From: Corythucha ciliata | Lineage: Eukaryota; Arthropoda; Insecta; Hemiptera; Tingidae | DNA: 64,000 nt | Assembly (NCBI GenBank): GCA_038030265.1 | Contig: CM075942.1 | Location: 65,910,926 to 65,974,925, forward strand | Direction: 5' to 3' | In this document: one piece after another, positions 9,610 through 62,800 of the stretch | Numbering within the stretch: the stretch's first letter is position 1 | How the letters are laid out: every line of letters begins with the position of its first letter | Made by a program: the position numbers and the translations under genes | Notes under the pieces: model-generated | Seen by the model: only the letters and a program-made list of their open reading frames with translations | What the model was told of the DNA's origin: nothing | The model's database searches: none

Positions 9610-11273
9610 CGGAGCAGAAGTGGCATTATTCACAGACGTTTCTAATCACGCCATCGGACCTGTCATCCAGCAGAAGACCAATGACGCTTGGCAACCACTC
9701 GCTTTTTTCTCAAAAAAGATCTCTGCTCGTCAAGCTGCGTGGCCCGTCTACTACAGAGAACTTCTAGCGATTTATGAAGCGATTTATGAAGCGATTCATC
9801 ATTTTCGGCATTTTCTGGAAGGCCAAGTATTTACAACTTACACTGACCACAAACCCCTCACACATTTCTTCACACAAAAACATGACAAATTGCCCCCTGT
9901 CCAACGTAATCAGCTCACATACATTTCACAGTTCACAACCGACATCCAACACGTAGGAGGATCTGACAACGTCGTCGCGGACGCCCTATCTCGAGTACAA
10001 TCTGTTTCAACGGCTCTCGATTTCGAATCGTTGTCTCAATCGCAACAATTAGACCCCGAGCTTCAGTCTTGGGAATCAAAAACGTCTTCTCTTACTCTCG
10101 AAAAACTCATCGTTCCTGGCACGCGAATTGAGATAATTTGTGACACCTCAACAGGTCGTCCTCGCCCTTTTATTCCTCATCCTTTACGACGCTCAGTTTT
10201 TCTCAAGTTACACAACCTCAGGTGCTCGTGCGACTACAAGACTGATCACCGAAAGATTCGTTTGACCGTCAATGAAGAAGGATATTCCCGCATGGACACG
10301 TGCTTGTCTTGCTTGTCAACGGTCCAAAGTTTCGCGACACGTCCACTCACCGCTAGGACATTTCGACACTCCTACATCTCGTTTCTCTCACGTCCACATC
10401 GATTTGATCGGCCCACTTCCACTTTCGAATGGTTTCAGGTACTGTCTCACCTGCATCGATCGTGTCACTCGATGGCCAGAAGTAACTCCTCTTCCTGACA
10501 TCACAGCTAACACAGTTGCCCTCGCTTTTCTATCCACGTGGATTTCTCGTTACGGCGTTCCAGAAAAGATCACTACTGATCGCGGTATGCAGTTCATGTC
10601 TTCAGTTTTCTGCACACTTTCGAAACGTTTCGGAATCGATGTGTGTCACACAACGAGTTACCACCCGACATCCATCGGCTTGGTCGAACGCTTGCATCGT
10701 CAGCTAAAAACCGCCATCACTTGCCACGCTGACAGAAATTGGACCGAAAAACTTCCCCTCGTTCTGCTTGGAATACGATCCGCCTTCAAGGAAGATCTTC
10801 AAACCACCTCGGCAACCCTCGTTTTTGGAGAAAGTCTTCGACTTCCAGGAGAATTCTTGTCACCTCAACCCGAAACAAATTCTACTCCTGAGTTAATCGA
10901 ACACCTCGCTAAAATCATCAGTCAGATCCGACCAATACCGACTTCTCGACATTCGACACCTGGTAGTTTCGTCTTCAAAAATCTCGACTCTTGTACACAC
11001 GTCATGTTACGTGATGACAGCACTCGTCATCCCTTCCAAAATCGTTACTCAGGACCCTATCCCGTCGTTAAACGCGACAAAGTCTACAAGACCATCACGA
11101 TCAAGACCAGTTCTGATAAACACGTAACAGTCTCAATCGACCGTGTCAAACCGGCGTATTTTCTTCACGAAGACGTAGACTCTACCACCCTCACCCACCC
11201 GACAACTTCAGCCATAAACAAGAAGGTTCGCTTCGATCTGGGCGAGCTACGCTCTCCTCCTCCAAGGGGGTGA
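9610..11273 (+). pseudogene. Gypsy pol, RNase H and integrase half, broken
   Basis: The RNase H domain opens with F-T-D-V-S-N-H-A-I-G (9626 on) and includes T-Y-T-D-H-K-P-L and a D-A-L-S-R end. The integrase core is in another frame (10272-11273): H-I-D-L-I-G-P-L-P, then I-T-T-D-R-G-M-Q-F and G-L-V-E-R-L-H-R, giving the D,D,E triad. Near 10215 a small indel shifts frame, and a TGA at 10264 replaces an expected Trp codon. A 12-bp tandem duplication repeats I-Y-E-A at 9773-9796. Gag, protease and RT are missing upstream. The element would have made the nuclease that removes RNA and the enzyme that integrates cDNA. Confidence 0.85.
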
Positions 11274-24191: not shown

Positions 24192-25340
24192 ATGGACGCA
24201 GCCCAATTCGAACAGCTTTTAACGGCTTTTACCCAGGCCCAGTTAAATCTGGTGCAATCCCTTCGAACTCAGCAACACATTTCTCCAGTAAATAACGCCT
24301 CTACACCCCAGACAATAAATGTTCACCCCTTCGAACATTATGACCCAGCTAAAGAGGCATTCAGTTCTTATATCGAGCGGTTTGAAAACTATCCCGCAAT
24401 GCAAAATTTCTCAGACTCAGGAAAACAAGCCCAGCTATTCTGTGCGTCTATCGGCCCCGCTCATTATAACAATTTAAAATCATTTCTCGGCCCGGAGAAG
24501 CCGATCAAAGACATTCCATACGAAGAACTGAAATCTAACTTCATGGAAATGTTGGCTCCAAAACGCAACGTCCTAGTTAGTCAACATTATTTTCTCAGTT
24601 TAAAACAAACGGACAATCGAACTGTCACAGAATTTGTTGCCACGCTCCGCCAGTCTCTCTCGAATTGCGATTTTCTTATCCAGTGCTCATGTAAGTCACA
24701 AGTCTCAGCTTCTGAAATTTTTCTGCGAGCCCAATTTATTCGAGGGCTAAAAGACGACTGGATACGAGAGCAGCTGTTGCAATCGAACGCCACCCGATTT
24801 GATGATTTTGTCGCAAAAGCCATTGCCCTAGAGGCTTCGAGAATTGATAGTCGTAAAATTTCTATGCAACTCAGTACCTCAGATGACACTTTGAAAGTCT
24901 CTGGTCACACTTTTTCTCGCAGTGCCAGTCGAGATCGTCGCTCTCGGGTCCAAAACGGGCAATATCAAGGCCATGGCACCAATCATCGCTCACGGCACCG
25001 GTACCAGACCCCCTCACCCCGTCGAAACCCAGTATCTAATCATCGTCAGCGGATTGATTATCGTGTCCTTGGTATAGATAACCTGTGCCTAAACTGCGGG
25101 AAATCTAATCACCGATCCCGTGACTGTTTCACTGATCGTGATAAACTCAAATGCGACTCTTGCCACAGAAAGGGACACATCGCAAAGGTGTGCATCAAAA
25201 CCCTCCTCAAAGCCAAAAGAGGTGATGTCTCTGGTACACAGCACATTCGAGACGCTGAAGATAGCTCTTCAAGTCACATTTTTGGTCTAGTCAATCACAT
25301 CGAACCTAAATTAATTGACCTTTTTGAAGTAGTCTCTGTA
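24192..25340 (+). CDS. Gypsy gag, cut at its 3' end by the TIR element
   Basis: The frame opens M-D-A-A-Q-F-E-Q-L-L and runs about 380 codons before the inserted element begins at 25341; the frame then reads into the insert to 25532. It has a gag core with F-x-x-Y-I-E-R-F-E-N-Y, then an Arg/Ser-rich segment (residues ~245-290). Two zinc knuckles follow: C-L-N-C-G-K-S-N-H-R-S-R-D-C near residue 298 and C-D-S-C-H-R-K-G-H-I-A-K-V-C near residue 322. Gag packages element RNA into virus-like particles. Its natural continuation, the protease, resumes at about 30648. Confidence 0.85.
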
Positions 25341-25689
25341 GTACAGTCAAAAAATTTTTTAAAAAGCCTCCTAGCGGGCAAAACTCGTCCACTTCTGAAA
25401 CTTGGCTCAAAAATCCCTTATTATAGTAGAATACGAGATCCGATGAGTCCCGAGTTGAGGGAGGGGGGGAACCATGATTGCGGAGTGGAGGAAAGTTTGG
25501 AAAATTCCTTAAATTTGAGTTTTTATGTCTGACTTGAATTTAAGGTGGTTTCCGACGTATTTGTTCACGCTGAGTTGAATGAGACCACAGCCAGGTCGCT
25601 AGCACCAATATTGTCCGAGTTATGATGCAATTTGTACTAAAAAACACAGGTTTTTCAGGTAAAATCGCGACAATTTTTTATTTGAAGGA
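25341..25689 (+). repeat. Left terminal inverted repeat
   Basis: Reverse complement of 30308-30647. Compared with the right arm there is one substitution (near 25573) and one small difference in the last 20 bp, and about ten extra bases in the outer 60 bp (25355-25395). It contains the first 22 codons of the long ORF and one inverted copy of the 170-bp subterminal unit. Confidence 0.9.
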
Positions 25690-28600
25690 CAATTTGAGGA
25701 CAGAAGAGGCGTCCTATCATCGCAAGTGTTTTTTGGCTTTTCGTAAGATACCCGTAGACATGGGTGCTCCTGCTCATCGCCCTGCGTCCTCAGATGTGTC
25801 CCTAGCTATGGATGTGGTTTACCAGTGGATTGAAGAAAACGATGATTGCCAGTTCGCTATTAGGGATCTGCAAGAAATGGTAGCTGAGGTGTGCTCGATC
25901 GAAATCAGCAAGCGTACTTTGAAAAGGAAACTGCTTGAACGGTACGGGGACCAAATATTGCTGGGATATGCAAACAGGAAAGTCTCCATTGTTTGTTTCC
26001 GCTCTCACGCTGGCCGAATAATCTCTGAGCAATGGTATCAAGATCAAATGAAGCTAGAGGACGAAGGAGAAAAAGAACGGCAGATTATGATCAAAGCGGC
26101 TCAGATCGTTAGGAAACACGTCGAAAATAGGAAGTATGATCACACCACCTATCCGAGCAGCTATGGTTTCTTTGATGACGTGCAAGAGATGATACCGCAA
26201 CCCTTGCAGGTGTTTTTACAGCACGTCGCTGGGGAAAAAAACAAAGTTAACAAAAGAAAGAAATGCACGATGATTTCACATTGCATAATTTCTCTTATCA
26301 AACCAAATTCATTCATTTCTCCTCTTTTGTTAGGTATCGGATCATACATTCATCAAAATTTTGGATCAAAAACACTCATTGCACTGCTGTCAAACCTAGG
26401 TATTTGTGCTTCCTACCATGACGTAAAGACACTGGAGGCTTCACTCATCATGGGCCCCGCTCCAGTGATCAAAGAAGGGAGCTTCGAACAATTCGTGTTT
26501 GATAATTGTGACTTCAATGTTAACACCATCGATGGCAACGGAACATTCCATAACATGGCTGGGATAGCATGTGTCACTCCAGCTGACTCGATACTTAACA
26601 GAAAGGGCCGAATTGAAAAATCTCGTACAACATCTATTCCCCAGCAAAAGAAAGGGATGGTTCAGATACAGCCAGTTCCTTTCAAGCCTTTTGGTGGGCT
26701 TCAAGAGCTCGTAATAAACAATATTGATAATATTCTCGTTCCGTCCGATGGCTCTCCGTCCCCACACGATGTAACTTGGTTTATCGCTAAATTCTTGGGA
26801 CTTGAAGGCGTTCCTGGATGGCAAGGATTTCTGGAACAAATAACAAGTACTGGTTACAGTGAAATATCCACCGTTCTCCCTATGCCTTTCATCATGGCGC
26901 CTCCCTCTGATCAAGCAACAGTGTACACTTCATTGCTCATGGCTGTAGAACACGGAGAAAAAATTGGTCTCCGCACGATTTTTGTCACGTTTGACCTGCC
27001 ACTGTATATGAAGGCGCTAGAAATAACTTTATCGGCTCCTAAAGAATCACTGATGCAGAAGGTGGTGGTCAGAATAGGGGGATTTCATCTGCTGATGTCC
27101 TTTCTTGGAACCATTGGATACATCATGGGGGATTCTGGCCTCCGTGAATTATTTGAAATTGTATACGCTGAAAACACAGTCAAGCACATAATGTCTGGGC
27201 ATGCGTATTCTCGCGCAGTCAGAGCTCATAATCTTGTGGCTACTGCTCTTTTTAATGTTGTCCTGAACGACGCAAAACTCTCTCCACACGAGCTTGATGC
27301 CGTTAAAAATGTTATGTCTGAGTTCCATATCATGCCACCTTCGAAAGAAGAAATTGATTTGGACCCTAAAATCGTTGCAATTCAGAGAAAAGTCGTAGAC
27401 AAAATGAAAATAATTGAAAACAGGGGGCCGACAGCTAAACTTTGGGTGCAGTATCTCAATATGGTGATCCTGATCCGGCAGTTCATTGAAGCCGAACGGA
27501 CTGGTCAGTGGGAAATGCACCTTAGTACTGTGCGACTCATGGTACCGTTCTTCATTGTGAGTGGCCACATACACTACGCGAAAGCTTGCCTTGTCTATCT
27601 GCAGCAGATGTTAACGCTACAAGAGCGTATGACACCAGACGACTACGCAAGATTCACGGGAGGATACTTCACTGTGAGGAGAAGCAACAAGTTTTGCAGT
27701 GGCACTTCAACGGACATGGTCATTGAGCAAACAGCGAATCGTGAATTCAAAGTTAAGGGAGGAATCGTTCAAAGAGGATTCACTGACGATGTAATAAGTG
27801 CGTACGTGCTAAGGAAGCCGGCAATGGCCATGATCACAGAAGCACTTGAAGACTTCTCAGGTAGAGCATTCGTAACATCGGAGCAACACATTGATGCCCG
27901 AGAAAGCAGGATCAAAAAAGACAAATATGATATAGATAAGCTTCAAGAACGCCTAGAATTAATCAATCCCTTTGTTATCCCCTCAGAAGTTGTCATCTCT
28001 CTCGGAACAGGCATCAAGGGTACTGACAAAATCAATTGTCACATGGCTAAGGAGATGGGCGAAAAGCTCATGATACAATACGTGGGCAAGAAGTTCGCAG
28101 ACATAAAAATGAAGAAAGCAGACAAAGTTCTATCCCTCGCAGCCGTCAACTCGTTCATTAAAGTTAATGAAAAAATAATCAATATCGACCCATTGGTATT
28201 GTACCAGAGGATGCTTCTTTGGAGAAGTCCTGCTGATGATCTCAAAGAATATTTCAGATTTGAACTTTCCCCTTTTCCCATGTCATTATTTACAGTTTCC
28301 GGAATGAGAAAAAATGTCAAGTCACAGTTGTACGAGGAATTAATCACCGCCCCCGACAATGAATTGGAAAAAAGCTCCTGCTATGTTATTGATGGTGGGA
28401 ATTTACTGCATTCTGTTCGATGGGATAAATCAAAATGTTCTACTTACAGTGACGTGTGCGACGTGTACGTTAATTTCTTGATAGAGAAGTACAAAGACAA
28501 AACGGTGGTGGTGGTGTTTGACGGCTATGACGATCCCAACAGTATTAAAGAAAGTGAACATAGGAGAAGGTACAAACATTTTGCTCCAGACTTTACCATC

Positions 28601-29584
28601 ACAGCTACAACTCCTACATATGCCAACCAGGAGCAATTCTTGTCTAGCACAGTTAACAAGAAGCAGCTCATTGACTTACTTTCTCAGAAACTGTCAATTA
28701 ACAACATAGAAGTCGTGAAATGTGAAGGTGATGCTGATCTCCCAATTGTCGAAGCTGCAATTGCTAAGTCTGGGAGATACATCACAACAATTGTATCACA
28801 AGACATCGATGTTTTGGTGATTGCAATCGCAAGGGTCTCCCCTACTTTTCCCGTGCTATTCCTAAAGCCAAGAAAATCTCGAACAGGAAGAAAGGTATTC
28901 AACACAAAAACTCTGCAAGAGCAGCATGAGCACCTAAAAGACTTTATTCTTCTTGCTCATGCATTTGGTGGGTGCGACACAACAAGTGCCATTCATGGCA
29001 AAGGGAAAAAGCAAGTTTTCATGCTTCTGCGAAGCATGCCGAATCTTGTCGAAGTATGGAAAGCATTCTCCAAACCAAAGGCCAAGCACGAGGAAATAGC
29101 GAGCGCGGGAGAACGCTTGTTCCTCAACCTTTATGGAGCAAAAGACGAGACTTCCCTTGATGCGTTGAGATTCGGTATGTTCGAGAAGAGTCTCAAGAAG
29201 ACGATCGTCAAGCTCGAATCCCTTCCTCCCACTTCGGCGAGCGCGGCGCAGCACTCGTACCGCGTTTACCTGCAAGTTCAACAGTGGCGGGGTGAACAAC
29301 TGCGACCGGAGGACTGGGGTTGGAGGCGCCAAGAAGGGACCCTCGTCCCAATCAGGACAACGCTGGACCCAGCCCCCGATGCTATTCTTCGAGAAATTTC
29401 ATGCGCGTGCAGAAGGGGCTGTGCTACCCAGAAATGCGGTTGCGTGAGGACGGGCGTTAGCTGTTCCCCTCTGTGCAAGTTCTGTGAGGGGGTCACTTGC
29501 GACAACACAACCCGCCCAGAGCAAGAAACGGCACCGGTATATTCCAGTTCCAACTCCGAGGGGGAAGCCTCGGACGAGGAATGA
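25622..29584 (+). CDS. Large protein with PIN/FEN1-like nuclease domain and C-terminal tesmin/TSO1-type CXC domain
   Basis: An uninterrupted 1320-codon frame. Codons 1-22 lie in the inverted repeat; similarity to the relative at 54951-58952 starts at about codon 23. Y-H-R-K-C-F (~36) is a likely zinc-binding N-terminal motif, and a helix-turn-helix-like segment is at ~95-110. The long middle is conserved (N-V-N-T-I-D-G at ~300; G-G-F-H-L-L-M-S-F at ~490). A PIN/FEN1-type nuclease lies at ~918-1130, with acidic residues in V-I-D-G-G-N, V-V-F-D-G-Y, E-G-D-A-D-L-P, S-Q-D-I-D-V-L and G-G-C-D-T-T-S-A-I-H-G-K-G-K. The CXC domain at ~1261-1294 (C-x-C-x3-C-x4-C-x-C-x6-C) probably binds DNA. The end is acidic. 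The true start may be a spliced upstream exon or a later Met (25760). Proteins of this layout are multicopy and uncharacterised in many invertebrates; a transposase role is my inference. Confidence 0.85.
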   Translation: MMQFVLKNTGFSGKIATIFYLKDNLRTEEASYHRKCFLAFRKIPVDMGAPAHRPASSDVSLAMDVVYQWIEENDDCQFAIRDLQEMVAEVCSIEISKRTLKRKLLERYGDQILLGYANRKVSIVCFRSHAGRIISEQWYQDQMKLEDEGEKERQIMIKAAQIVRKHVENRKYDHTTYPSSYGFFDDVQEMIPQPLQVFLQHVAGEKNKVNKRKKCTMISHCIISLIKPNSFISPLLLGIGSYIHQNFGSKTLIALLSNLGICASYHDVKTLEASLIMGPAPVIKEGSFEQFVFDNCDFNVNTIDGNGTFHNMAGIACVTPADSILNRKGRIEKSRTTSIPQQKKGMVQIQPVPFKPFGGLQELVINNIDNILVPSDGSPSPHDVTWFIAKFLGLEGVPGWQGFLEQITSTGYSEISTVLPMPFIMAPPSDQATVYTSLLMAVEHGEKIGLRTIFVTFDLPLYMKALEITLSAPKESLMQKVVVRIGGFHLLMSFLGTIGYIMGDSGLRELFEIVYAENTVKHIMSGHAYSRAVRAHNLVATALFNVVLNDAKLSPHELDAVKNVMSEFHIMPPSKEEIDLDPKIVAIQRKVVDKMKIIENRGPTAKLWVQYLNMVILIRQFIEAERTGQWEMHLSTVRLMVPFFIVSGHIHYAKACLVYLQQMLTLQERMTPDDYARFTGGYFTVRRSNKFCSGTSTDMVIEQTANREFKVKGGIVQRGFTDDVISAYVLRKPAMAMITEALEDFSGRAFVTSEQHIDARESRIKKDKYDIDKLQERLELINPFVIPSEVVISLGTGIKGTDKINCHMAKEMGEKLMIQYVGKKFADIKMKKADKVLSLAAVNSFIKVNEKIINIDPLVLYQRMLLWRSPADDLKEYFRFELSPFPMSLFTVSGMRKNVKSQLYEELITAPDNELEKSSCYVIDGGNLLHSVRWDKSKCSTYSDVCDVYVNFLIEKYKDKTVVVVFDGYDDPNSIKESEHRRRYKHFAPDFTITATTPTYANQEQFLSSTVNKKQLIDLLSQKLSINNIEVVKCEGDADLPIVEAAIAKSGRYITTIVSQDIDVLVIAIARVSPTFPVLFLKPRKSRTGRKVFNTKTLQEQHEHLKDFILLAHAFGGCDTTSAIHGKGKKQVFMLLRSMPNLVEVWKAFSKPKAKHEEIASAGERLFLNLYGAKDETSLDALRFGMFEKSLKKTIVKLESLPPTSASAAQHSYRVYLQVQQWRGEQLRPEDWGWRRQEGTLVPIRTTLDPAPDAILREISCACRRGCATQKCGCVRTGVSCSPLCKFCEGVTCDNTTRPEQETAPVYSSSNSEGEASDEE

Positions 29585-29612
29585 TGAAAATAACATCCTT
29601 CTCCCAATTTGT

Positions 29613-29884
29613 TAATTGTTCCAATAAAGCATCAATAACAAACTTTCCATAATCTAATTCTCTTATTGTACCATTCTTCCCATTATCAATCTAACCAGGT
29701 AACCGCACTACCAAGCAAGAGGAGGTAGGTACCCAAAGGGAACCCTTTCGAATGCCCATTTTTTTGTAAATTGTTCGAGAAAAGCATCTCTGACGAGCTT
29801 TCCATAATCAAATTTGCCTTTTGTACCATTCTTCTCATTATTAATCTAACCAGGTAGCCGCATCACCAAGCAAGAGCAGGTAGC
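29613..29884 (+). repeat. Tandem duplication of ~115-bp blocks after the ORF, period ~155 bp
   Basis: The block from ATTGTTCCAATAAAGCATC to AAGCAAGAGGAGGTAG (29613-29727) recurs in diverged form at 29768-29884. The first copy includes an AATAAA polyadenylation signal 40 bases after the stop codon. Confidence 0.75.
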
Positions 29885-30019
29885 GGGCATTATATTGCTA
29901 AACCCTACTGTTATACGTGTCCAGCCCGAGTTTCGTTGACCTTATCCCAGAATTTCTAAGGCTTTTCAAGTGCCAGAAGACAAAACTTGTGATTTCAGGC
30001 TCAAAACTCGTGTCTTTTC

Positions 30020-30430
30020 GTACAAAATTGGCCATAACTCAGGAACTATTTGTGCTAGCGACTTGGCTCAGGTCCCATTGGATTCAGCACTAAAAAATGC
30101 ATAAGTGCTGAGAGAATCACACACTGATCATAAACTGGGACCACCACTTGGATAGTTTGAATATGAAAAAATAAAAACCTTGTTTTTTTATACTAATTTG
30201 GCCAAAACTCGAAAAGTATCAATCCTAGCGGGTTGACTTTGGTCTCATTCGATTCAGCATTGAAAACTACATAAGGAATTATATGAACGCTGACCAAACC
30301 GGAAATTTCCTTCAAATTAAAAATTGTCGCGATTTTACCTGAAAAACCTGTGTTTTTTAGTACAAATTGCATCATAACTCGGACAATATTGGTGCTAGCG
30401 ACCTGGCTGTGGTCTCATTCGACTCAGCGT
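30020..30430 (+). repeat. Subterminal repeats with exact 170-bp spacing
   Basis: Three units share the order TAC(A/T)AATTTGGCC-like box, CATAACTC, CTAGCG, GGTC(T/C)CATT(C/G)GA(T/C)TCAGC. The CTAGCG box ends at 30060, 30230 and 30400, exactly 170 bp apart. The third unit is inside the right TIR, so an inverted copy is present in the left TIR. Positioned like transposase-binding sites. Confidence 0.75.
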
Positions 30431-30647
30431 GAACAAATACGTCGGAAACCACCTTAAATTCAAGTCAGACATAAAAACTCAAATTTAAGGAATTTTCCAA
30501 ACTTTCCTCCACTCCGCAATCATGGTTCCCCCCCTCCCTCAACTCGGGACTCATCGGATCTCGTATTCTACTATAATAAGGGATTTTTGAGCCAAGTTTC
30601 AGAAGTGGACCTAGTTTTGCCCCCTAGAAATCATTTTTTGACTGTAC
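30308..30647 (-). repeat. Right terminal inverted repeat
   Basis: Complement of 25341-25689. It carries, on the minus strand, the same first codons as the long ORF, which here run into a stop, so it is a mirror copy and not a second gene. Confidence 0.9.
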
Positions 30648-31355
30648 TATGACCCTGATAAATACGTCGTCACAGTCATGGTTAACGACGTACCATGTCA
30701 CTTCGAAGTCGACTTAGGAGCTAAATATTCTCTTCTCTCAAAATCCGACTTTGACGCCCTCAACCTTGACGTGCGTCTGTTACCATCAAACGTATATTTT
30801 CGATCCTACTCAGACCACATTATTCAACCGCTCGGGAAAGTCAAAGTCAAAGTTTCATACAAGGCGACAGCCGTCGAAGAAGTCTTGTATATTGTACCGT
30901 CTGGACACCAGCCGCTCTTAGGAAGAACGTGGATCCGTCAACTAAACCACGATCTTGGTCAAATCGACCGCGAACGCCGTCTCAAGGCTTACCCTGCCCC
31001 AGTAAATTTCACCCAGCCTGAAGATTCAATTTTAAACGAGTTTGCGTACATCTTTGTTGAAAAAATCGGATGCGTCCCGAACGTGGAAATCAAACCACAC
31101 CTGAGAGAAAATGCAACGCCATGTTTCACCCGGGCTCGCGACGTCCCGTATGCCCTACGAGCAAAAGTAGAACAAGAATTAGACTCACTCGAATCATCAG
31201 GCATCATCACACCTGTCAATACAACTGATTGGGGTTCACCGATAGTCATAATTCCCAAGCCTGATGGAAATGTACGCATTTGTGTAGAGTCAACAAAAGG
31301 CTTGTCTCTGCAAATCACCCGATCCGTAGAATTGACGACGTTCTTCACAGCTTAA
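30648..31355 (+). pseudogene. Gypsy protease and start of reverse transcriptase
   Basis: The frame resumes right after the inserted element and encodes an aspartic protease (F-E-V-D-L-G-A-K-Y-S-L-L near residue 20). The usual D-T/S-G triad reads D-L-G, which may be damaged or a family variant. G-R-T-W-I follows near residue 87, then the RT entry (W-G-S-P-I-V-I-I-P-K, V-R-I-C). A one-base frameshift near 31287 moves the rest of RT into the overlapping frame at 31280-32713. The protease would mature the polyprotein. Confidence 0.75.
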
Positions 31356-39036: not shown

Positions 39037-42000
39037 ATGAAAATTCTTCAATGGAATGCGAGATCAGCTGTTTCCAATAAAGAGAACCTCGAATTATGTT
39101 TGCACCAAGAAAATATAGAAATAGCTCTCATCCAAGAAACCTGGTTTAAGCCAGGATCGGGAATATCATTCAAAGGCTACAACTTAATACGGAAAGACCG
39201 AAGGGACGGAAAACGTGGCGTATAGCCATATTAATTAAAAGAAACATCCCTTACGATATAATTGATGACCTTCCAAATGACGACAAGTTGATGACAGTAG
39301 GCGTCAAAATAAACTATTACAAAAAGCACCTTACAATGATCTCCGCTTACAATGTCCCCAACAACGCTATACCATCTACAGTATGGGATAATTTTTTTTT
39401 CAAACTGACCTTCCCGTTCATAGTCGCTGGCGATCTTAATTCACACCATGCGCTTTATGGATGCACCAAAACAACAGAAATGGGGAAAAACCTTGTAGAT
39501 GCACTGAACAGTTGTCAATTGATTGTTCTCAATAATGGCTCACCAACTTTGGTGAATAACGCCGCTCAGTACAACAAATCCGCAATAGACGTCACAATTG
39601 CCTCGCCTGACATTGCCTCCGATTATGACTGGCAAGTTCTTCATGACCCCATGGGCAGCAACCATCTCCCAATCAAGGTAGTCTCCGGTATCAACAGCCC
39701 CAGCCACGCAGTTAAACACAACACGAGAAAATGGAACATCGAAAAGGCGGACTGGGGAAAGTACAAAGAAAGTATGGAGCGATTTATAGCAGATACAAAC
39801 GTAACGAACAATCCCATAAACTATGAAAAATTCGTCGATTTCATTAATGCTGCGAGTGAAAAAGCCATTCCAAAAGTCACTCCCCGGTCCACGGGCGGAT
39901 TAGGCAAGATGTGGTGGAACGATCAATGCAAACAGGCAATTAATGAAAGGAAGCAGGCATTCCTAGCGTATCAGAGGAACAGTTCAGCCAATACATACTG
40001 CGAGTATAAGAAAGCAGAAGCTAAGGCTAAGAAGATAATTAGTGAGAGGAAGAAAGTAACATGGAAAACTTATTGCGAAAGCTTAAATAGACATTCTAAT
40101 ATTAATTATGTGTCGCGCACATTAAAGAAATTAAGCAATAAATCGGACCAACCTCCAACTGCAGACTCGGCCGCAAAAGAGGAATGGATAGACGAATTCA
40201 TCCAGAAACAGTGCCCTCCCCATGTTACAGTTTCCGCCTTGCATGAACCCTATATATTATTCCCAAAAATTCTGAACAACACTTCCTACAACAAACCTTT
40301 ACCTTGCAAGAATTTCACTTGGCTGTACGCCGTAAGATAAATACATCCCCGGGGTTGGACAACATTCATTATCCCATGTTGACTAACCTTCCGGAAACGG
40401 CTCAGAAACTCCTGTTGCGCATATTAAATGAAATTTGGACAACTGAAAACTATCCGAAAAGCTGGAAAGAGTATTTGGTGGTACCGGTTCTGAAAAGTAG
40501 TAAGAAACCGAATAATTATTGCTCATACCGACCCATTTCGCTTTCGTCGGTATATTAAAGACGTTCGAAAGAATGGTGAAAAATCGCTTAGAATGGCACC
40601 TGGAGTACAACAATTTACTTCCTAAAACCCAGTATGGTTTCAGGAAGGGGAAGAATATACTATATGATTGCCACACAAACCTCGTCAGCGAAATAGAAAT
40701 GGCATTTACGACAAACAAAGTGCTAATGGGACCATTCCTGGACATTGAAAGTGCGTACGACAGCGTACAGTTAAACATACTCGTTAACAAAATGCTGACA
40801 TTGGGCCTCCCACCGGCCTTCTCCAGAAAAATAATTAAACTATTGATCGAACGGAAGGTCTTCGTCCGATATGACAATAAACTTTTCGGTCCCAGGATCG
40901 CCATGGTTGGACTGCCTCAAGGCGGAATATTGTCTGGTATTTTATATGCTATATACGTCGCTGATTTAGAGAAGAAAATTATACCGGAATGTAATATAAT
41001 ACAATTTGCTGATGACTTGTGTCTATTTAGTACCCAAAAAACTAAGGACGAGTGCATTGACAAGCTATCAGTAGCATTTCGTATACTTGAACAGTGGACA
41101 AATACGAACGGGCTAGCCGTGGCACGGGAAAAATCTGTGGTCTGTATGTTCACAAGGAAAAGAACTCTTCTAATGGAAAACGAAATAGAAATAGGAGGAC
41201 ACAAAATTACATGTTCCCGGGAGGTAAAGTTCCTGGGCCTTCATCTCGACTCAAAGTTGAAGTGGACGGCCCATCTTGATAATATTATTAGGAAATCTGA
41301 GAGATACATGAATGTTCTGAAGATGATAGCGCATAGCAAGTGGGGCGCAGACCCAAAAACCTGCTTAAGTTTTTACCGAGCAACCATCCGCTCAATTACG
41401 AATTTGCCTTGGGTATCTCAAAAGCACGCCTATCGACGTGATGCAGGTCGAAACAGCAGAAATGCCTCTTAGCTTGAGAAGGAGGATCCTAACTGACAGG
41501 TATACGATGAATGTCCTATCTTTCAAACCTCAGATATCAGGTAAATTGACTCAACTGGTCGGAATGGTAGCAACATATGCATACTGTAGAAATAAACCGC
41601 GGCCTCTCATGGTCGATAGTTTCAACAGAGTATCTGAATTTAGCATGATCACGTACAGATCCTACACCTATCCCATATATACGAACATGCCTTTACCACG
41701 GTAACCGAGGAAGTAGACACTATTTGTTTGCAAAATTATAAGGATACATTACCATACACCGTTAATGCTATATTCAAACAAGATATACACAGCACAATCC
41801 CTGACCACACTTTGATATTCACAAATGCCTCGAAGAAGGGCGACCAAGTGGGGGCAGCAGTGTACGATCCACTCAATGACGTTGTCAAACAATTTAAACT
41901 AAATCAATATATGTCAAGTGCTTCAGCCGAAATAGTCGCAGTAATCGAAGCGGTAAAATACATTCGAAGTCTTTCAGCAGGAAAATATGCAGTTTTAACT

Positions 42001-52345: not shown

Positions 52346-52836
52346 TATCCAAGGAATTTGACGGTGGGCTGGCCCAGAACACTTTTCTTCAGGTTGAGCG
52401 TGAGACCGTGTTTGTGAAGAATGGAGAAGACTTGGTGAAGGTGCTCTTCGTGTTCCCTAGGATTTTTTGATGCGACCAGAACGTCATCAATGTAGGTGAA
52501 GACGAAGGGTGAATCCCGAAAGATGTGGTCCATAAAGCGCTGGAAAGTTTGCGCTGCATTGCGGAGACCAAATGTCATCCTGGGGAACTCAAAGAGACCG
52601 AACGGTGTGATGATGGCGGTCTTGGGTATGTCGTTCTCCGCGACGGGAATGTGATGGTACGCTCTGTTGATGTCCAGTGTCGAAAATACTTGTGCACCGT
52701 AAAGGTGATTGGTAAAATCGTGAAGATTCGGAACGCTGTAGCGGTCTGGCTGCGTGATTGCGTTTAGACGACGGTAATCGCCGCAAGGACGTATTGAGCC
52801 ATCCTTTTTTAGCACGACGTGAAGTGGGTTGACCAC
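51872..52836 (-). pseudogene. Gypsy reverse transcriptase and RNase H start
   Basis: The minus-strand frame at 51946-52836 has an RT with D-G-S-I-R-P-C-G-D-Y-R-R-L-N, V-F-S-T-L-D-I-N-R-A-Y (catalytic Asp) and T-Y-I-D-D-V-L-V-A (catalytic pair) near residue 110, then F-L-G-Y-Q-V. A one-base deletion near 52150 moves the RNase H start (C-D-A-S-S-S-A-L-G) to the frame 51872-52123. The pol reading stops at ~51872, where the repeat-rich block begins, so integrase and the 3' LTR are missing here. Confidence 0.85.
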
Positions 52837-53534
52837 GGACTGCGTGATGGGCGACAGATTTCTTCCTCCATCATGCGCCGGAATTCCTCTTTAGCAGCGC
52901 GGTACGTCTCGGGTGGAAGGCGTCGGGCTTTCGCTGAGACGGGTGGACCAGTAGTTTCGATATAATGCTTGATGTCTCCTTCTGCTTTCGCCTTAATAGG
53001 CGTAGGTAGAAGTAGGTTTGCAAACTTTTGAAGAAGGTGGCCGTATGGTGCTCCAATTGGCATTGTTGAAAGTTGTGGTGAGGCTTTTCTCGTCGTAATC
53101 CCGTGGATCTGAATTTGTGTGATTTCATCGATTAGTCGCTTCCTGGTTAGGTCTTCGGCTAAGTTGTGGTGTTTTAAAAAATCCGCGCCGAGTATGGCGC
53201 TTGAAACATCGGCTACCACGAAGGTCCATTTGAAAGGTCTGCGAAGTCCCAGGTCGAGAGTTCGGTGTTGATTGCCATAAGTTGCAATAGGAGAACCGTT
53301 TGCTGCGTACAGTTTGTAATTTTGATTCATGTGACTCGCTCGATTTTACTCGTGACTCGACTCTCGAACGGAGATGGCCGCGCCAGTGTCAATTAGGAAT
53401 TTCTCCTTGGTCTGGAGGTCGTAGACGTAGAGACGGGGAGATTGGACGTCGTTGGCGGTGGAGTCCGCCGGGGCTAGTTTCCCGATGACGTGGCGTTGTT
53501 GGTGCCTTGGGACCAACTGCAGGGCTGGGCACAT
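52809..53534 (-). pseudogene. Gypsy protease region
   Basis: The frame at 53346-53534 has L-I-D-T-G-A-A-I-S-V, a retroviral-type aspartic protease active site. After a frameshift the frame at 52809-53330 continues with Y-A-A-N-G-S-P-I-A-T-Y-G and L-G-A-D-F-L, which completes the protease. It then leads to the RT entry (P-E-x-Y-R-A-A-K-E-E-F). It lies between gag and RT of the same copy. Confidence 0.8.
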
Positions 53535-54155
53535 TTCCGAGCATTCGCCGCGAATTTTCGATGGTAGAAACAGAGGGTTGACGATCGAGATTTACTCCGT
53601 TGCCTAGGGCGTTTACTACCCCTGTTTCGTGAATTGGATCGGCCGCGTCTTTCAAAGGAGGTGCGGAGTTTTTGTAGCTCGGCGATGACCAGTTCCAGTG
53701 GGCTGAGTTGTGCGCTGACGACAGCGGCGACTGAAGAATTCCCTGTTGAATAGGAACTGTCCATTTCCATGATTCGGTCGGCTGCTTGTGCGAGCTTGTC
53801 GAGCGGTTGCTCGAGCACCGCGAGTACATTTTTGACTCGAGCGGGTAGTGCTCTCAACCATACCGTCTTCATGACATCGTCCGAGAGTGCTCCGTTCGAA
53901 ACACTCTGCATGTGCCGGAGTAGTTGCGATGGTTTGGCGTCGCCAAGTTGTGTTTCTTCCAGTAAGCGAAGTACTCTTCTCTCTTGGCTCTCACTGAACG
54001 CCTTGGTGAGTCGGTCCTTCAGTGTGGTATAGGGAGTAATTCCAGGAGCCTTGGCAAGATCCGCTACTTGTGCCATTATTTTGTACGGCAGTTGGCTCAG
54101 AATTTTAGACCCAACATTACCTCCATCGGTCCAGTTGGTGTCGTCTGAAAATCCT
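53520..54155 (-). pseudogene. Gypsy gag, N-terminally truncated
   Basis: The frame contains L-S-Q-L-P-Y-K-I-M-A-Q-V-A-D-L, then L-L-R-H-M-Q-S-V-S, then Arg/Ser-rich sequence. It ends in C-F-Y-H-R-K-F and C-A-Q-P-C-S-W, the Cys/His end of gag in a common arthropod Gypsy family. The first part of gag is missing. At about 54155 the same open frame passes into LINE RT sequence, so the frame up to 54361 is an accidental fusion. Confidence 0.75.
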
Positions 54156-54159
54156 CCCC

Positions 54160-54945
54160 GCAGAGTGGCCAGACGGGGTAACCTCTGCACCCTATCGAGC
54201 CTGGCAGACGAATTCCACAATTTATTAGCCGCTTTCCACCACACTACTGCCACCTGAAGAATCCTTGGGCGAATGACCCCCACATAGAGCCAGAAGGTCA
54301 TTTTGGGGTTGAGACCCCATGTTTTCACCACTACCCTCCTAGTCTGGTAAAACGTACTCAATGCCCTCTGATAAATATTCCTAATAATGCGCTTCCCATC
54401 TCAGCCGATGGTCCGGGTTCCACCTCCCTTCCTCTGATACTTATGGCCTGAAGCCCCTGCCTACTCCTTCTATTCATGAACAAACATAGTTTCACTTTAT
54501 CCGGGTTTATAGTTAACCCTCTTGGCTCAAACCAGTCCCCCACAAGTCTAATTGCCTCGCGCATTACCTCGCAAAGCGTTGACAAGTTCTTCCCCTTAAC
54601 GACTATGGCACCGTCGTCTGCAAAAAATTGCATATAAAAACCTTTTACCTCCGTCAACCTGATGAGCTCGTCTACAACGATTATGCATAACCCTGCGGGG
54701 CACCCCTCCACCGTTTCCCCTCCAAGCTCCACCATTACCCATCTATGCCTCAGGGCATGGCTAATCCATCTGACCATCAGATTGACCCTAAAGACTTTTA
54801 AAGTCTCACTAATTCAGTTAAACTTCACCTGGTTAAATGTCTCCTCAGTGTCTAAAAACAACAATAAGGCATACTATTTCAATTGTATCTTCCAACGTCT
54901 CCACCAACTCCTGCAGAGCGAAAACGGTGCACAAAGTTGAAACCC
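54160..54945 (-). pseudogene. LINE (R1/LOA group) reverse transcriptase fragment
   Basis: On the minus strand: A-L-Q-E-L-V-E-T-L-E-D (54905), F-L-D-T-E-E-T-F-N (catalytic Asp, near 54850), C-P-A-G-L near 54700 and Y-M-Q-F-F-A-D-D-G-A (catalytic pair, near 54620). G-L-N-P-K-M-T-F-W-L-Y and V-I-R-P-R-I follow near 54300. The frames are broken. It may belong to the same family as the LINE at 1794-3540, of which it covers the missing RT. It abuts gag on one side and the nuclease-CXC pseudogene on the other. Confidence 0.75.
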
Positions 54946-54950
54946 TCAGC

Positions 54951-57900
54951 ATGAAGGATTCAATTATAGAAATGGCTGCCCAGAGTGGGGAGAACAGATA
55001 ATACAGCGTCTTTCTTGTATTTCTGACCTTGTTGCTGCTATGGGCCAGTACCATCATGACTGTTACAATAAGCTGTGGGCCAAAAAGCGTGGCAAAGGAT
55101 TCAAGAGATCAGGGCGCCCACAGGATATAGACCTTGCGGAGGGTATGGAGAGGATTTACGAATACCTTGCAGAAAACGAACATGAGTGTCAATTTGCATT
55201 GAACGATCTATTATCACGAGGCTTCCCAGGGGATTACCAACCTGATATCAAGAGCGTCGAATTACACCTGAAGAGGTACTTTGGGGAGCAAGTCATGTTC
55301 ACAAAGACAGGTCAGGGCCGCATCTCAATAGTCAGCTTCGGGGGCATTGGGCAAAAGATCCTGTATGACAGTTGGTATCAAGAGAGAAAGAAAAACAAAC
55401 AAGAGGAGCGATTGAGAGTGGTCAAGGCTGCAGCTGAGATAGTACTGCAGGATATTCGCTCACAAATATATGACATTAGTGAATATCCTCCTTCTGACGA
55501 TTTTATGAAAAATGCTGAGGATGACATGCCGGAGACTTTAAAAGTGTTCCTTGAGACGATAGTCCTCAAAAACAAGCGATACTCCCTTGACTACTGGAAA
55601 AAAAAAATTACAGCATTTGGCCATGCAATCATAACAGCAGTCAGGCCCAGATCCTTCTTGTCCTCAGTTCAGGTCAGCTTTGGTGCTTATTTGTACAGAA
55701 AATTTGGCTCAATGCACCTTGTAAATCTCTGATATTCCATGGGATTTTCCTGCAGTTACAAGGAGGCTATGAGAGTAGAGAGTTCAGCCATCCTTCGGGG
55801 AGAACTTGCACAGCTGATTGAAAAAGGTGCTTTTATGCAGTTTGTTTGGGACAACGCTGATGTTAACGTCAACACATTGGATGGCCTCAACACATTCCAC
55901 GAGATGGGTGGAATCCTGATAATAACCCCTTATTCCTCCATCAACCCAGACAAAAATATCCCAAGGTTGAAATATGTTTCTGCAGAATCATTAACAGCGC
56001 ATACCCAATCAGAACTCATGTCGTCCACTGTCAGCAAGAATGCAGGCTTATCAGCTATTTCAATAGCTGATGCGAAAGCTTCGAGTGAAATTCTACCTTC
56101 AACCCCAGACCTCGTCTGGTTGTTTGGGAAAAGTCACAGCACACCAGGAATCCCAGGTTGGAATGGCTATATGGAACAGGTTACCCAAGACCTTCCCTAT
56201 CAACGCTCGAGGATAGTTTTCCTTCCATTTATCCACGCTCCCCCAACAGACTACGACACTGTTCTCACGTCTCTAGTTCAATCCTGTGAGAGAACACGAA
56301 CTCACGGACAGACAACGTGCTTCGTGACATATGACCAACCTTTATACATGAAGGCTAGAGATATTGTGGAGAGCTGCCAAAACCCTCAGCTGACAAATGT
56401 AGTGGTACGATTAGGGGGCTTCCACCTTCTCATGTCGTTTATGGGGGCCATTGGCGCCATAATGGCAGGGAGCGGGCTGAAAGAACTCCTGTCGACTATA
56501 TTTGCAGAGAATAGTGTCGACAAAATTCTACATGGGCATGCATATTCGAGAGCCATGAGGGCTCATATGTTGACGAATCTTGCACTTTCTCTCTTCATTT
56601 GGAACGATGAAGTAGATACCACAATAGGGGAACGAACCGAAATTGAAAACCTGCTGATAAAGATGTCGGAAAAAAATGCTGAAAAAGAGAGAAATATGAT
56701 TCTGCAACTGACAGAGAACAAAACTATCCAAATCCTCGGTGCCAAATTCAAAACTGCGATGGAAAAACTGGAAAACAGAGGACCAACATCAAAGCTCTGG
56801 ATTCAGTACTTGAAAAAATTCATTCAAGCAGAGAGAATGGGAGATTGGAACCTTCACCTGGAGACAATCAATAACATGCTCCCTTTTTTCCACTCAGCTG
56901 GCCATTTCCTCTATGCTAAGAGCGCTCGGCTGTACCTCCAGGATATGGGAACACTTCAACAGCGAATGGACCCAAAAGAGTTCCGCTCATTCACAGAAAG
57001 AGGCGAGTTTACCATTCGTCGCTCGCACAAATTTTGGTCTGGCCTGTGAACTGATCTGACTACTGAGCAGGTTCTAATGCGGTCCATGAAGAGCCAGGGT
57101 GGCTTGACCCATGGGCGAGGAATATCAAACAGCGTTCTTGCTCGATGGACGGGTGGAATGGTATTCATGCTAAACATTTGCGAGGGAGTTGAATACTACT
57201 GGACCGTTTCCAGCACCACCAGTGAAGAGCATGTTGACATGAGGCCCTCCCGCATCGGACGTGACACTGATGATGTGGAGAAATTGAAAAACTGGTTGGA
57301 TGTCCACGTTCCATTTTCTTCCACTGACAAACTGTTGTCCATAAGCAGTGGGATTGTTGGAACCTCAGAGGTCAACTGTCATCAAGCACAGGAATTGGGA
57401 GCTGAAGGGGTTAAACAAATCACAGGACATACGTACGGAAAAGTTGGTTTCAAACGAAAAGACAAAGTAAGAACTTTGGCTACAGCTGTCATCAACTTTG
57501 ACAACAAGAAAGTTGAGATTGATCCCCTCACCATATTTCAAAGGCTGTGCATCATCAAGCAATCAGAACATCACTTAAAGGAGCACTTCAAATACGAGTT
57601 GGCTCCCTACCCAACGGCTCTGTTTTCTGAAGAAGGGATGCGTAAAGGTACAAAATCGAGCTTCTATGCGGCTTTCACTCCCCTCGCAGAAAACATCCCT
57701 ATAACAGGCCCTAATTCTTTTGTAGTGGTTGATGGAGGTTTCCTACTCCACAGGGTCCAGTGGCGTCGCAATGATAGCATCAGAGTGATTGTAGCTGCCT
57801 TCATCAGCTACACATGTCACCACTATGGGCAGAATGTTACAATTGTATTTGATGGCTATCCTGAGGATGGGGCTTCGAGAAACACCAAAACAGCCGAACG

Positions 57901-58952
57901 CCTACGTCGATACGGAACCTCGGGATGTAGTGACATCATCTTCCATGAATCTACATTCATTGAAGTACCCCAGGAGAAATTTCTCTCCAGTGACAATAAC
58001 AAGCGTCGCCTCATCCAATTCCTCTGCTCAGGGTTCCAGCGAGAGGGGATCGAAACAAAAGTATCTGAAGAGGATGCAGACTCTACTATTGTTAGGACAG
58101 TCCTAGCCAAGAGCAGGTGTTACGAAAATGTTTTTGTCGTTGGAGAGGATGTTGACCTGGTGGTGCTACTCACTGGTTTGGGCTCATCCGTACGCAACGT
58201 GTACCTCCACAAAAGCGGGAGGAGTGACTCTACGCCATCGCAGTACTCCACAGCCTCGTTCAATCGCGGGGAGAATGTTTCTACACGCATTCACAGGGTG
58301 TGACACAACGAGCGCCCTTTTCTGGGTCGGGAAAATGAAGGTGCTGCGAGTCTTTCAGCTGAATAACAGCCTCATTGATGTCGCAGCCACCTTCTTGAAT
58401 CCCAACGCCACCCAAGAAGAGGTTGCCTCAGCTGGGGTGAAGTGCCTCCAAGCCATCTATGGAGGTAGAGAAACTGCGGAACTGCACGAGCTCCGCTATA
58501 AAAACTTCGTCCAGGCAGCAGCCAACGTGCGAGTTAATCTAGCACGTCAACCCCCAACCAAAGAAGCAGCAGCCTACCACTCTTATCGTACATACCACCA
58601 AGTACAGTCGTGGTTGGGGGTAGAAAAGCAGGCAACCACCTGGGGCTGGATGAAGAGCCAGCAGGGGCTCCTTCCCATCCCCTTCAGGCAGCCTCCAGCG
58701 TCACCTGAAATATTGAAGCTGATTTCATGCAAATGCAAGAAAGGCTGCATGGGTGGGTGCTCCTGCAGGAAAGCGGGACTTGTCTGCTCGAGTTTGTGCG
58801 GCTCATGTCGAGGCATAGCATGCTCTAACATTGCCCCAGTGGATATTGAAGAATCAGACGAAGAAGATGCCATGGACGAACCACTCCCAGTACCTCATCC
58901 TGTGGATTCAGAAACTATCTACGAATGTGGGCCCTCCAAAAGACGTAGGTGA
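54951..58952 (+). pseudogene. Diverged relative of the nuclease-CXC gene, with stops and frameshifts
   Basis: Similar to the protein at 25622-29584 along its length: D-L-V-A-A-M-G-Q-Y-H-H-D-C-Y (55025), N-V-N-T-L-D-G (55867), G-G-F-H-L-L-M-S-F (56418), nuclease motifs V-V-D-G-G-F, I-V-F-D-G-Y, E-E-D-A-D-S and G-E-D-V-D-L-V-V, G-C-D-T-T-S-A-L-F (58299), and a CXC domain C-K-C-K-K-G-C-M-G-G-C-S-C near 58730. Breaks: a frameshift near 55000, in-frame TGA at 55730 and 57047, and a frameshift near 58260. AATAAA follows at 59032. No inverted repeats were found around it. The left end is cut at a LINE. Confidence 0.85.
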
Positions 58953-59870
58953 TTTCTCCACAGACCGACACCCCCAACCATCTTCAATGTTATTTACATG
59001 TATATACTCAAGTACCTACCTATTACTGTTTAATAAATAAGATTTTAATAATCTTTTGTTGAGTAATTCATTTTATTTCCTCAAAAGTATAGCTTGGGGA
59101 GCAGAAGTCGACCAATTCAATTTCTCGAAAAATGCGACTTTTCCCATTTTTCTTTTTTTCAAGATAACAAGAGGACTATTAGGCCTAAATGCTTCGTTTT
59201 GGTCCTAAATTGAAGCCAAATAATTTCCCTATAACTTCATCCCTTATGACTTATTATGACTTGTTATTATTTAGGCCGATATTTCGCCCGAAAGAGAGTC
59301 AAAACTTAAATATTCGAATGTTAAGTTCTCACTTCCACTACTAAATTTTTTAAAAAACGAAATGAAAACAAACAAAAAAAACAAAAAAAAAAACAAAGTT
59401 TCGTCTCAACTTCTCAATTTTTTTTTTATTTAACTTCTCTTCTACACGACTCTTGATATTCTCTGTCTGCGCTTCTCAAAAACTCAAAAACATCTGATTC
59501 CTTTCTATAACAGCTTCATATTCCTCTTTTTTCATTATTATTAAGTAGAGTGACTTCTCGTGTCGTATAGCGTATTTTTTAACATTCGTCCATCCTGACG
59601 TCGGAGTCGTCCTCGATCCGCTCGTCCTTCGTCGAATCTTCTCTGGTAAACCTTCTCATCTTCTCGGGTAGACCGTCACAGGATTTCTCGCCACGTCGTC
59701 TCTTCTCTTCGCCAAAGTTTGCATATGAAAAGAATATGATATTTCACCCATACAGGGTATTTAGTTTCCAACTCGAGATAGACGTGAGAGGTGCCAAATT
59801 AAATCAATTTAAAAAAAAGTAAAACAACAAAATAAAAATTAAAAAAAGGCAAAATAAAAGTTTAAAAGCG
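58953..59870. other. 3' flank of the pseudogene and probable Gypsy 3' untranslated region
   Basis: No gene is supported. The minus strand beyond the Gypsy stop should contain its polypurine tract and 3' LTR, but I could not place LTR ends. A-rich runs are common at 59340-59440. Confidence 0.35.
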
Positions 59871-62800
59871 TCATTTCGTTACGAATTGATCCAAATATCT
59901 TGGGCGTCTTCTCACACGCGCCGGTCGCGTTGCCGTCGCGTGGTCGGGTGTTTTGTTTTCCGAAGCATCTTCAATGGCGGTGGCGTCGTCCTCTTCGGGG
60001 AGGGCTTTGACTTCTGACGAGGAATTAGGCTCTTCCAGTCGAAAGGGCTCTTCTTCGGCGGTCGGTCTTTCCTTATCGTCGTCAGCGTCGCTCACGAGTT
60101 GATAGTATCTGCGGCGCAATTCGTCTAGTTCAATTTTCTTATCTTCGTCTTCGGAAGTTGCTCCTGAGTCATTCGCTTCATCTTCGTCATATGCCTGAAA
60201 TGGCTTTAGTAAGGATACGTGTGCATTGGTTACATAATAATACCCCTGTCTGTTTCTCAGGGCGGCTACTTTATACGCATCGCCCGGAAACTTGGCTAGA
60301 ATTACTAGCGGACCCCTATACTTATTCTGCAACTTTGTGGGTTCTCCGGTCGCGACGGGGGGGCGTCGCAAATACACGAGTTGCCCGACTTCGAATTTCA
60401 CTTCGGGGCGGTTCTGATGGGTTGCTCTCCATTTCTCGTGTTCCCTTCTAATTTTTTCTCTTACCAGTGTCTGTAGTTCCGTTGGATGGGTGTAGTCGGT
60501 ATTTTCCAGTTGTTCAGTCAACGGCCTCCAATCCGCATCTCGGCGCCTGGAAACAAATCCGTATAACATTTCGAAGGGTGACTTACCAGTGGTCGCATTA
60601 GGGGCGTCGTTGAGGCAATGTTCGATATTTCTAAGATTTTTGTCCCATCTTCCTTCGCTCATATTTGCCTGGATTACTGGAATAATGGTTCTATTCACCC
60701 TCTCCACTTGCCCGTTGGCTCGTGGATGTCTGACGCTCACGTGGTGTAGGTTTATCCCTTTTTTGTCGCAGTACTCCGCAAATTCTTTCGACGTGAACGC
60801 TGTTCCTCTGTCACAAATGATTCTCCGCGGGACTCCGAAGTCGTCTATGAATCGGTCGAGGGCGGCGATGACGTATTTAGTCCGCGTCGATTTTGCTGGG
60901 AATAACCTGGAAAATTTGGTTAGGTTGTCGACAATAATGAGAAGGTGACAATTTCCACTAGGGCTTTTTTCAAACGGCCCCAGATGGTCAATGTTTATCG
61001 TTTCAAAAGGACGTCGTCCTGGCTCTATAGGGTGGATTCGACCAGCTCTTCGTCCTCCTGGTAATTTAGTTAGAAGGCAAGTTAAACACATATGGATATG
61101 TTGTTTCACATATCTCTTCATTTTTGGGAAATAATAGTTCTCGCGCATCATGGATAAAGTACGATCCAAGGCGAAATGACCAGCTTGGTCGTGAAATCTA
61201 ACCACCAACGATTTCCTGAAACAGTTTGGAATTACGAATTGAAATTTTTCACCTTCTTTCCTGCACAACAATCCATTTTTAAGCTGGTAGGATAATGATA
61301 CGTCTTTTTCCCCTTGAGTGCGTTGATCCAGCGGCTTCTCTAAAATGTCGATAATAGATCGTAAAGCGGCGTCGCTACGCTGTATTCCAGCGATGAAGTC
61401 ATTTTCCGGGGTTTCTTCTTCTACGGCACTTTCGGTCCAGTATACTTCAACTCGTCGTTCTAAAATCTCGTCGAGTGTATTTGTCGCATCCTCCACAGGC
61501 GCGCGGCTTAATGCGTCTACGTGAGCCATTCGCGCCCCAGGACGGTGTCGGATCTCAAGGTCGAATTCCGCCATCAGCTCACTCCATCTAGCTATCTGCG
61601 GATTTAAAGTTGTATTAGCCGACAAATATACTAACGCCTGGCAATCCGTGACAACAGTAAATCGAATGCCCAAAATCACAGGTCGAAGGCGGTCGAGCGC
61701 CCAAACGATCGCCATCAGTTCGAGTTTGGAAGAGTGATAATGCTTCTCGGCGTCTGTGAGTTTTTTACTCAAATATTGCACTGGTCGCTGTACCCCGTTT
61801 TCGTCTTTCTGTAACAAAATTGCAGCTAATCCATCAATGCTAGCGTCAGCGTGCAGCTCTGTTTCATCTGACGGATTGAAAACTTTCAGTACAGGTTCTG
61901 AAACGAGACAAATTTTAAGTTTTTCAAATGATTCTTCTTGCTTGTCGCCCCAGTTAAACGGCACGTCCTTTCTCGTTAAATCCGTCAGCGGTTTTCCTAT
62001 CTCAGCGTACTTTGGGATAAAACGGCGAAAGTATCCTGTAAGTCCCATGAAACGGCGAATTTCGTGCGCATTTTTTGGACGTGGAAAGTCTCGTACTGCG
62101 AGAATCTTCCTCTCTCCTGGTCGGATCCCGTCCTTTGAAAGTACATAACCGAGATATTCTACTTGTTTCAGACCAAATTGACATTTTGTTATCTTCAGTG
62201 TCAAATTATACTCCCTGAGTTTTTGAAAAACTAGTTTCAATTTGTGAAGCATGTCATCGAAATTTTTACCCGAAATGAGGATGTCATCAAAGAAAAATTG
62301 GATGGCGTTGCCCCTGAGTGGCCCAAGCACGATGGACATCAGGCGAGTGAAGTAATATGGGGCATTCTTGAGTCCAAACGGGACCCTGGTAAATTCCCCC
62401 GAATCATCTGGTGTGATAAATGCTGTCTTGAGTCGGGCTTCCTTCGACAAAGGCACCTGGAAATAACCATTAGCAAGATCCAGAGTACAGAATATCTCTC
62501 CACCAGCTAGGGAATATAATTGATCCTCAATATGAGGCAAGGGGTAGGTTTGTTTAACAGGTTGATTATTTAAATGCCTATAGTCACAAACCATACGAGG
62601 TTCTCCCGTCTTTTTCCTGACAATAAGTACAGGGCTGGCATAAGGTGAGGTGGTCGGTGCCACGATGCCACTCTCTCGGAGTTCTTTCACGATGTCGCGT
62701 AGCTCTTCTCTTTCTTTGGGCGTCGTTCGGTAGGGTTTCCTGCAAACAGGTACACTGCCCGGTTTTTCTATTATGTCCATCTCGATGGCAGTCGAACACC

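Follow-up and report, generated by a model that had tools for sequence, protein, structure and literature searches.

An internally deleted copy of a probable AcademX-type DNA transposon family in Corythucha ciliata, with a predicted DDE-FEN1-CXC protein

The window analyzed here, a stretch of 64,000 nucleotides from the tingid bug Corythucha ciliata (assembly GCA_038030265.1, contig CM075942.1, positions 65,910,926 to 65,974,925 of the forward strand), contains a mobile element that is bounded by terminal inverted repeats (TIRs) and carries one long open reading frame (ORF). The element sits inside a Gypsy element, of which a gag-like ORF from position 24192 lies upstream and reverse transcriptase, RNase H and integrase sequences lie downstream. 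It is an internally deleted copy rather than a full element, and it very probably comes from an AcademX-type family of DNA transposons that was active recently. The features of the locus are listed in Table 1; residue numbers are those of the window protein throughout.

Table 1. Features of the element and its insertion site (positions in the window).
Feature	Position	Strand	Evidence
Whole element, internally deleted copy, 5311 bp, inside Gypsy element	25339..30649	+	Arms, end alignment, duplications, empty site
TG target duplication on the left, 2 bp (3-4 bp is usual in the family)	25337..25338	.	Empty site and flank comparison
Left TIR remnant, outer ~352 bp of ~930	25339..25690	+	Comparison with full copies
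ORF of 1320 codons, uninterrupted	25622..29584	+	Open reading frame scan
Deletion junction, AATTT on either side and one extra C	25686..25696	.	Alignment to L020
Winged-helix-like domain, residues 55-129	25784..26008	+	
DDE transposase region (predicted)	26276..27862	+	Predicted model, fold matches, conserved residues
FEN1/EXO1-type nuclease domain, residues ~915-1230 (limits approximate)	28364..29311	+	Fold matches, conserved acids
CXC cysteine domain, residues 1261-1293, nine conserved Cys	29402..29500	+	Alignment; weak Pfam preSET_CXC (E 2)
Right TIR, full length ~918 bp, internal imperfect direct repeats	29732..30649	-	Comparison with full copies
TG target duplication on the right	30650..30651	.	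Empty site and flank comparison

The element begins and ends with TAGTACAGTC...GACTGTACTA, which makes it 2 bases wider at each end than in the original prediction, an annotation made from the sequence letters alone. The inverted arms of ~340 bp described there are present, with 99% identity between 25387-25694 and 30303-30610 and 91% in the outer 22 bp; however, the arm is only the remnant of a TIR of ~920-930 bp, as found in the full copy L020, whose TIRs of 929 and 918 bp are 98.4% alike across 898 aligned bases. Compared with L020, the window copy is ~1.99 kb short and has lost the inner part of the left TIR and N-terminal coding sequence. The left and the right outer arm differ through an asymmetry that runs through the whole family, as the outer 30 bases of 20 left and 20 right ends show, and not through decay of the window copy. 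Imperfect direct repeats (74-84%) at 29608-29883 and 30003-30428, past the end of the gene and in the right TIR, are possibly subterminal binding sites of the transposase.

A genome search with 300 bases of the Gypsy flank gave 19 matches including the window, and eight junctions were fetched. All eight sister Gypsy junctions are uninterrupted and read CTCTGACCC where the window has CTCTG-element-TGACCC. This empty site bears out the predicted insertion into a Gypsy element and shows that the insertion was clean and that the duplication of the window copy is TG. Duplications were scored wherever both ends of a copy could be read, which held for the window copy and 18 fetched copies (L017 and L023 were dropped): they are 3 bp long in 14 copies, 4 bp in three and 2 bp in the window copy, and L027 has none, so that 17 of 19 copies have 3-4 bp. 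In a control with mismatched flank pairs, 15 of 342 reached 3 bp. The TA that had been taken as flanking the element on both sides was rejected as a target duplication, because the empty site and the 19 two-ended copies place it inside the TIR.

In a search of the genome with the arm, 40 scored matches were obtained from 242 candidates, and family copy counts are therefore lower bounds. Twenty further copies were fetched, which together with the window copy cover 32 of the 40 matches. Fourteen are ~7.3 kb long, namely 13 two-ended copies of 7275-7313 bp plus L017, whose left end is missing its outermost bases; L021, L024 and L027 bear insertions or a small deletion, L019 and L028 have shrunk to 3185 and 3140 bp, and in L023 only the left TIR is visible within the 8.5 kb read. 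Of the 20 copies, 19 have the gene, whole or in part, flanked by such arms, the exception being L023, in line with the predicted mobile TIR element that has the protein as its transposase. The 14 full-length copies differ pairwise by 0.58% on average (range 0.27-0.92%), a slight overestimate, as the compared stretches take in a few dozen bases of flank. From this low divergence, the family is judged to be young and to have spread recently.

The single unbroken ORF of 1320 codons is present as predicted, but it is a 5'-truncated form of a longer frame: codons 24-1320 match residues 242-1538 of the uninterrupted frame of L020 at 99.8%, and codons 1-23 are translated TIR sequence. The full protein probably comprises ~1465 amino acids, with a putative start at MTDRESPP, about where the homologues, many of them 1430-1500 amino acids long, begin to align. 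Four of the 20 fetched copies (L014, L018, L020 and L025) have a single frame from this probable start to the common C-terminus, 1456-1465 amino acids in length; L015 is open but frame-shifted ahead of its end. In 82 of 108 homologues, at least 88 residues precede the position of window residue 30, and these are absent from the window ORF. The missing N-terminal region contains conserved cysteine and histidine residues in the homologues and appears zinc-finger-like.

The predicted model of the protein has an RNase-H-type strand order and a helical insertion, and residues ~199-747 gave moderate-Z fold matches with VIA-align, led by the P element, Hermes and ISCth4 transposases. D294, D458 and E702 are found at the expected secondary-structure places and are conserved in 102 of 103 ungapped rows of the alignment. 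Both lines of evidence suggest that the protein contains a DDE transposase with an RNase-H fold. Foldseek of residues 1-920 gave no match at E ≤ 0.001, transposases ranking first only by VIA-align, and sequence searches of Pfam and PDB found nothing that matched the window protein at E ≤ 0.01. The best fold matches, the P element, hAT (Hermes) and RAG1/Transib transposases, have an aligned identity of 8-12% and are not known to carry a FEN1 or CXC domain. Downstream of this region, the PIN/FEN1 and CXC domains of the original prediction were recovered: the nuclease matches the folds of EXO1, FEN1, XRN and XPG, its seven acids (D924, D967, D1037, D1039, D1061, D1063 and D1119) are conserved in 81 of 82 ungapped rows, and the cysteines of the CXC domain are likewise conserved. 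Kojima is said to have described the AcademX nuclease as XPG-type. Pfam scans of the window protein and 32 alignment members revealed no helicase; across the transposase region they matched nothing but DUF6589, a 'family of unknown function', in eight of the 32 alignment members.

Among the 108 homologues, 16 are assigned to a named organism, 15 from insects (moths, butterflies, aphid, beetles, ants, thrips, wasp and damselfly) and one from a rust fungus; a profile search added a mantis shrimp among the best 120 of 133 matches. The fungal record, P0044, is 39% identical, is filed under Austropuccinia psidii and is the sole non-insect among the 16; it may reflect contamination or horizontal transfer. 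Some homologues are named 'Tesmin/TSO1-like CXC domain-containing' and some match DUF6589, and such uncharacterized arthropod proteins are probable transposases of AcademX-type elements.

A protein search of the same genome, with 47 matches scored from 680 candidates, revealed at least 11 loci at 37-41% identity beyond the close family, four of which were fetched (L029, L030, L031 and L032). Long TIRs are present in three of the four. L029 and L030 are 99% alike, have TIRs of ~590 bp ending in TAGTCCAGTC and duplications, read by eye, of ACT and TAA; they represent a second family, whose 37%-identical gene has the same layout and is enclosed by TIRs of its own with related ends. L032 has inverted arms of ~610 bp with the right end GACTGGACTA, its left terminus being missing, and of L031 only the right end was seen, the left end lying beyond the stretch. 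The terminal motif TAGTNCAGTC is common to families whose proteins are 37-41% identical, and the gene is therefore tied to the ends. The protein is very probably the element's own transposase, given that 19 of 20 copies hold the gene, whole or in part, between their arms and that the 37%-identical gene is also enclosed by TIRs.

The AcademX lineage belongs to the Academ superfamily (Kapitonov and Jurka 2010; Kojima 2020). According to one published description, AcademX elements combine a DDE transposase and a nuclease and generate duplications of 3 or 4 bp, whereas those of AcademH are 9 or 10 bp, the difference being tied to the nuclease or helicase encoded (PMC10045372). The window family shares with AcademX the DDD/E transposase, the nuclease and the 3-4 bp duplications, which also hold for ACT and TAA in the second family, and it is likewise long, the mean of curated bivalve Academ elements being given as 5565 bp (PMC10294476); no difference was found in this comparison by description. 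AcademH is alike in belonging to Academ and in pairing a DDE transposase with an accessory enzyme, but differs in its helicase and 9-10 bp duplications. Kolobok lineages D, E, H and P also combine a DDE transposase with an accessory nuclease or helicase; however, these are DEDDh, PD-(D/E)xK or His-Me nucleases or a RecQ helicase, in contrast to the FEN1-type nuclease of the window family, and in KolobokP the long terminal repeats are direct and the nuclease is of the His-Me kind, where the window family has TIRs and a FEN1-like nuclease (PMC9587614). Thus, the group does not look undescribed, contrary to the original prediction, and the claim for a new transposition chemistry is removed. Membership in AcademX is probable and is judged from architecture. 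In the limited collection of literature searched, neither a description of a DDE-FEN1-CXC protein nor a test of the role of a transposon-borne flap nuclease in transposition was found.

TIRs combined with short target duplications of fixed length typically point to DDE strand transfer, and DDE cut-and-paste with a 3-4 bp stagger is very likely the mechanism of this family. A full element of ~7.3 kb, with TIRs of ~920-930 bp starting with TAGTACAGTC, would encode one protein, in which the N-terminal Cys/His region is followed by the winged helix, the DDE domain with its helical insertion, the FEN1/XPG-type nuclease and the CXC domain. The DDE domain would cut the TIR ends and join them to the target DNA, while the Cys/His region, the winged helix and the CXC domain would bind TIR or target DNA. 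By analogy with the FEN1 family, we hold with moderate confidence that 5' flaps or overhangs, left where the transposon ends are joined or at the donor break, are removed by the element's nuclease, a task that would otherwise fall to host FEN1. An unlikely reading is that the DDE domain cannot work without the flap nuclease, which would cut the strand that is not transferred, or resolve 5' flaps, so that transposition needs no host repair, with the CXC and N-terminal Cys-rich domains adding a mode of end recognition not met in the literature searched; if true, this division of labor between two nucleases would also explain why duplication length differs between AcademX and AcademH. The young family, with several uninterrupted full-length copies, is a practical system for studying the role of a flap nuclease in transposition. 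A deletion flanked by short homology removed the 5' part of the window copy, which would probably be mobilized, if at all, by protein supplied from full copies.

Three other explanations were considered. An improbable one is that the family is a superfamily in its own right, a sister of Academ and not a member, that gained the DDE and FEN1 architecture independently; in Pfam the transposase region matches only DUF6589, a term absent from the limited literature searched, and Academ membership was judged from architecture, but every comparable feature of AcademX (DDE, nuclease and 3-4 bp duplications) is matched. It is very improbable that the FEN1/PIN nuclease is itself the transposase and replaces a DDE enzyme, as originally predicted: the conserved nuclease fold and acids, the lack of a Pfam DDE family match for the window protein and the Foldseek result would fit this, but the TIRs with short duplications of fixed length are typical of DDE enzymes, and residues ~199-747 have DDE fold matches and the conserved D-D-E triad, the very finding that the original prediction had named as speaking against it. 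Least probable is a non-autonomous carrier with a captured host FEN1-like gene and its true transposase elsewhere, as the gene lies between the arms in nearly all fetched copies, four copies keep one frame to the native C-terminus and the genome also holds the 37%-identical gene, enclosed by related TIRs of its own; what stands of this proposal is that the window copy, being truncated and probably unable to supply the full protein, is likely non-autonomous, through deletion rather than gene capture.

Elsewhere in the window, a diverged and broken relative of the DDE-FEN1-CXC gene is located at 54983-58949 (+), with ORFs at 55739-57049 and 57077-58303 and 49% identity to homologue P0010 over one stretch. 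No inverted repeats were found around it in 52501-62000, and the end motif occurs in the window only at 25339 and 30640. Other mobile elements in the window are represented by a Gypsy-type polyprotein at 59871-63902 (-), an endonuclease of the long interspersed nuclear element type at 39291-40340 (+) and an integrase core at 10272-11273 (+).
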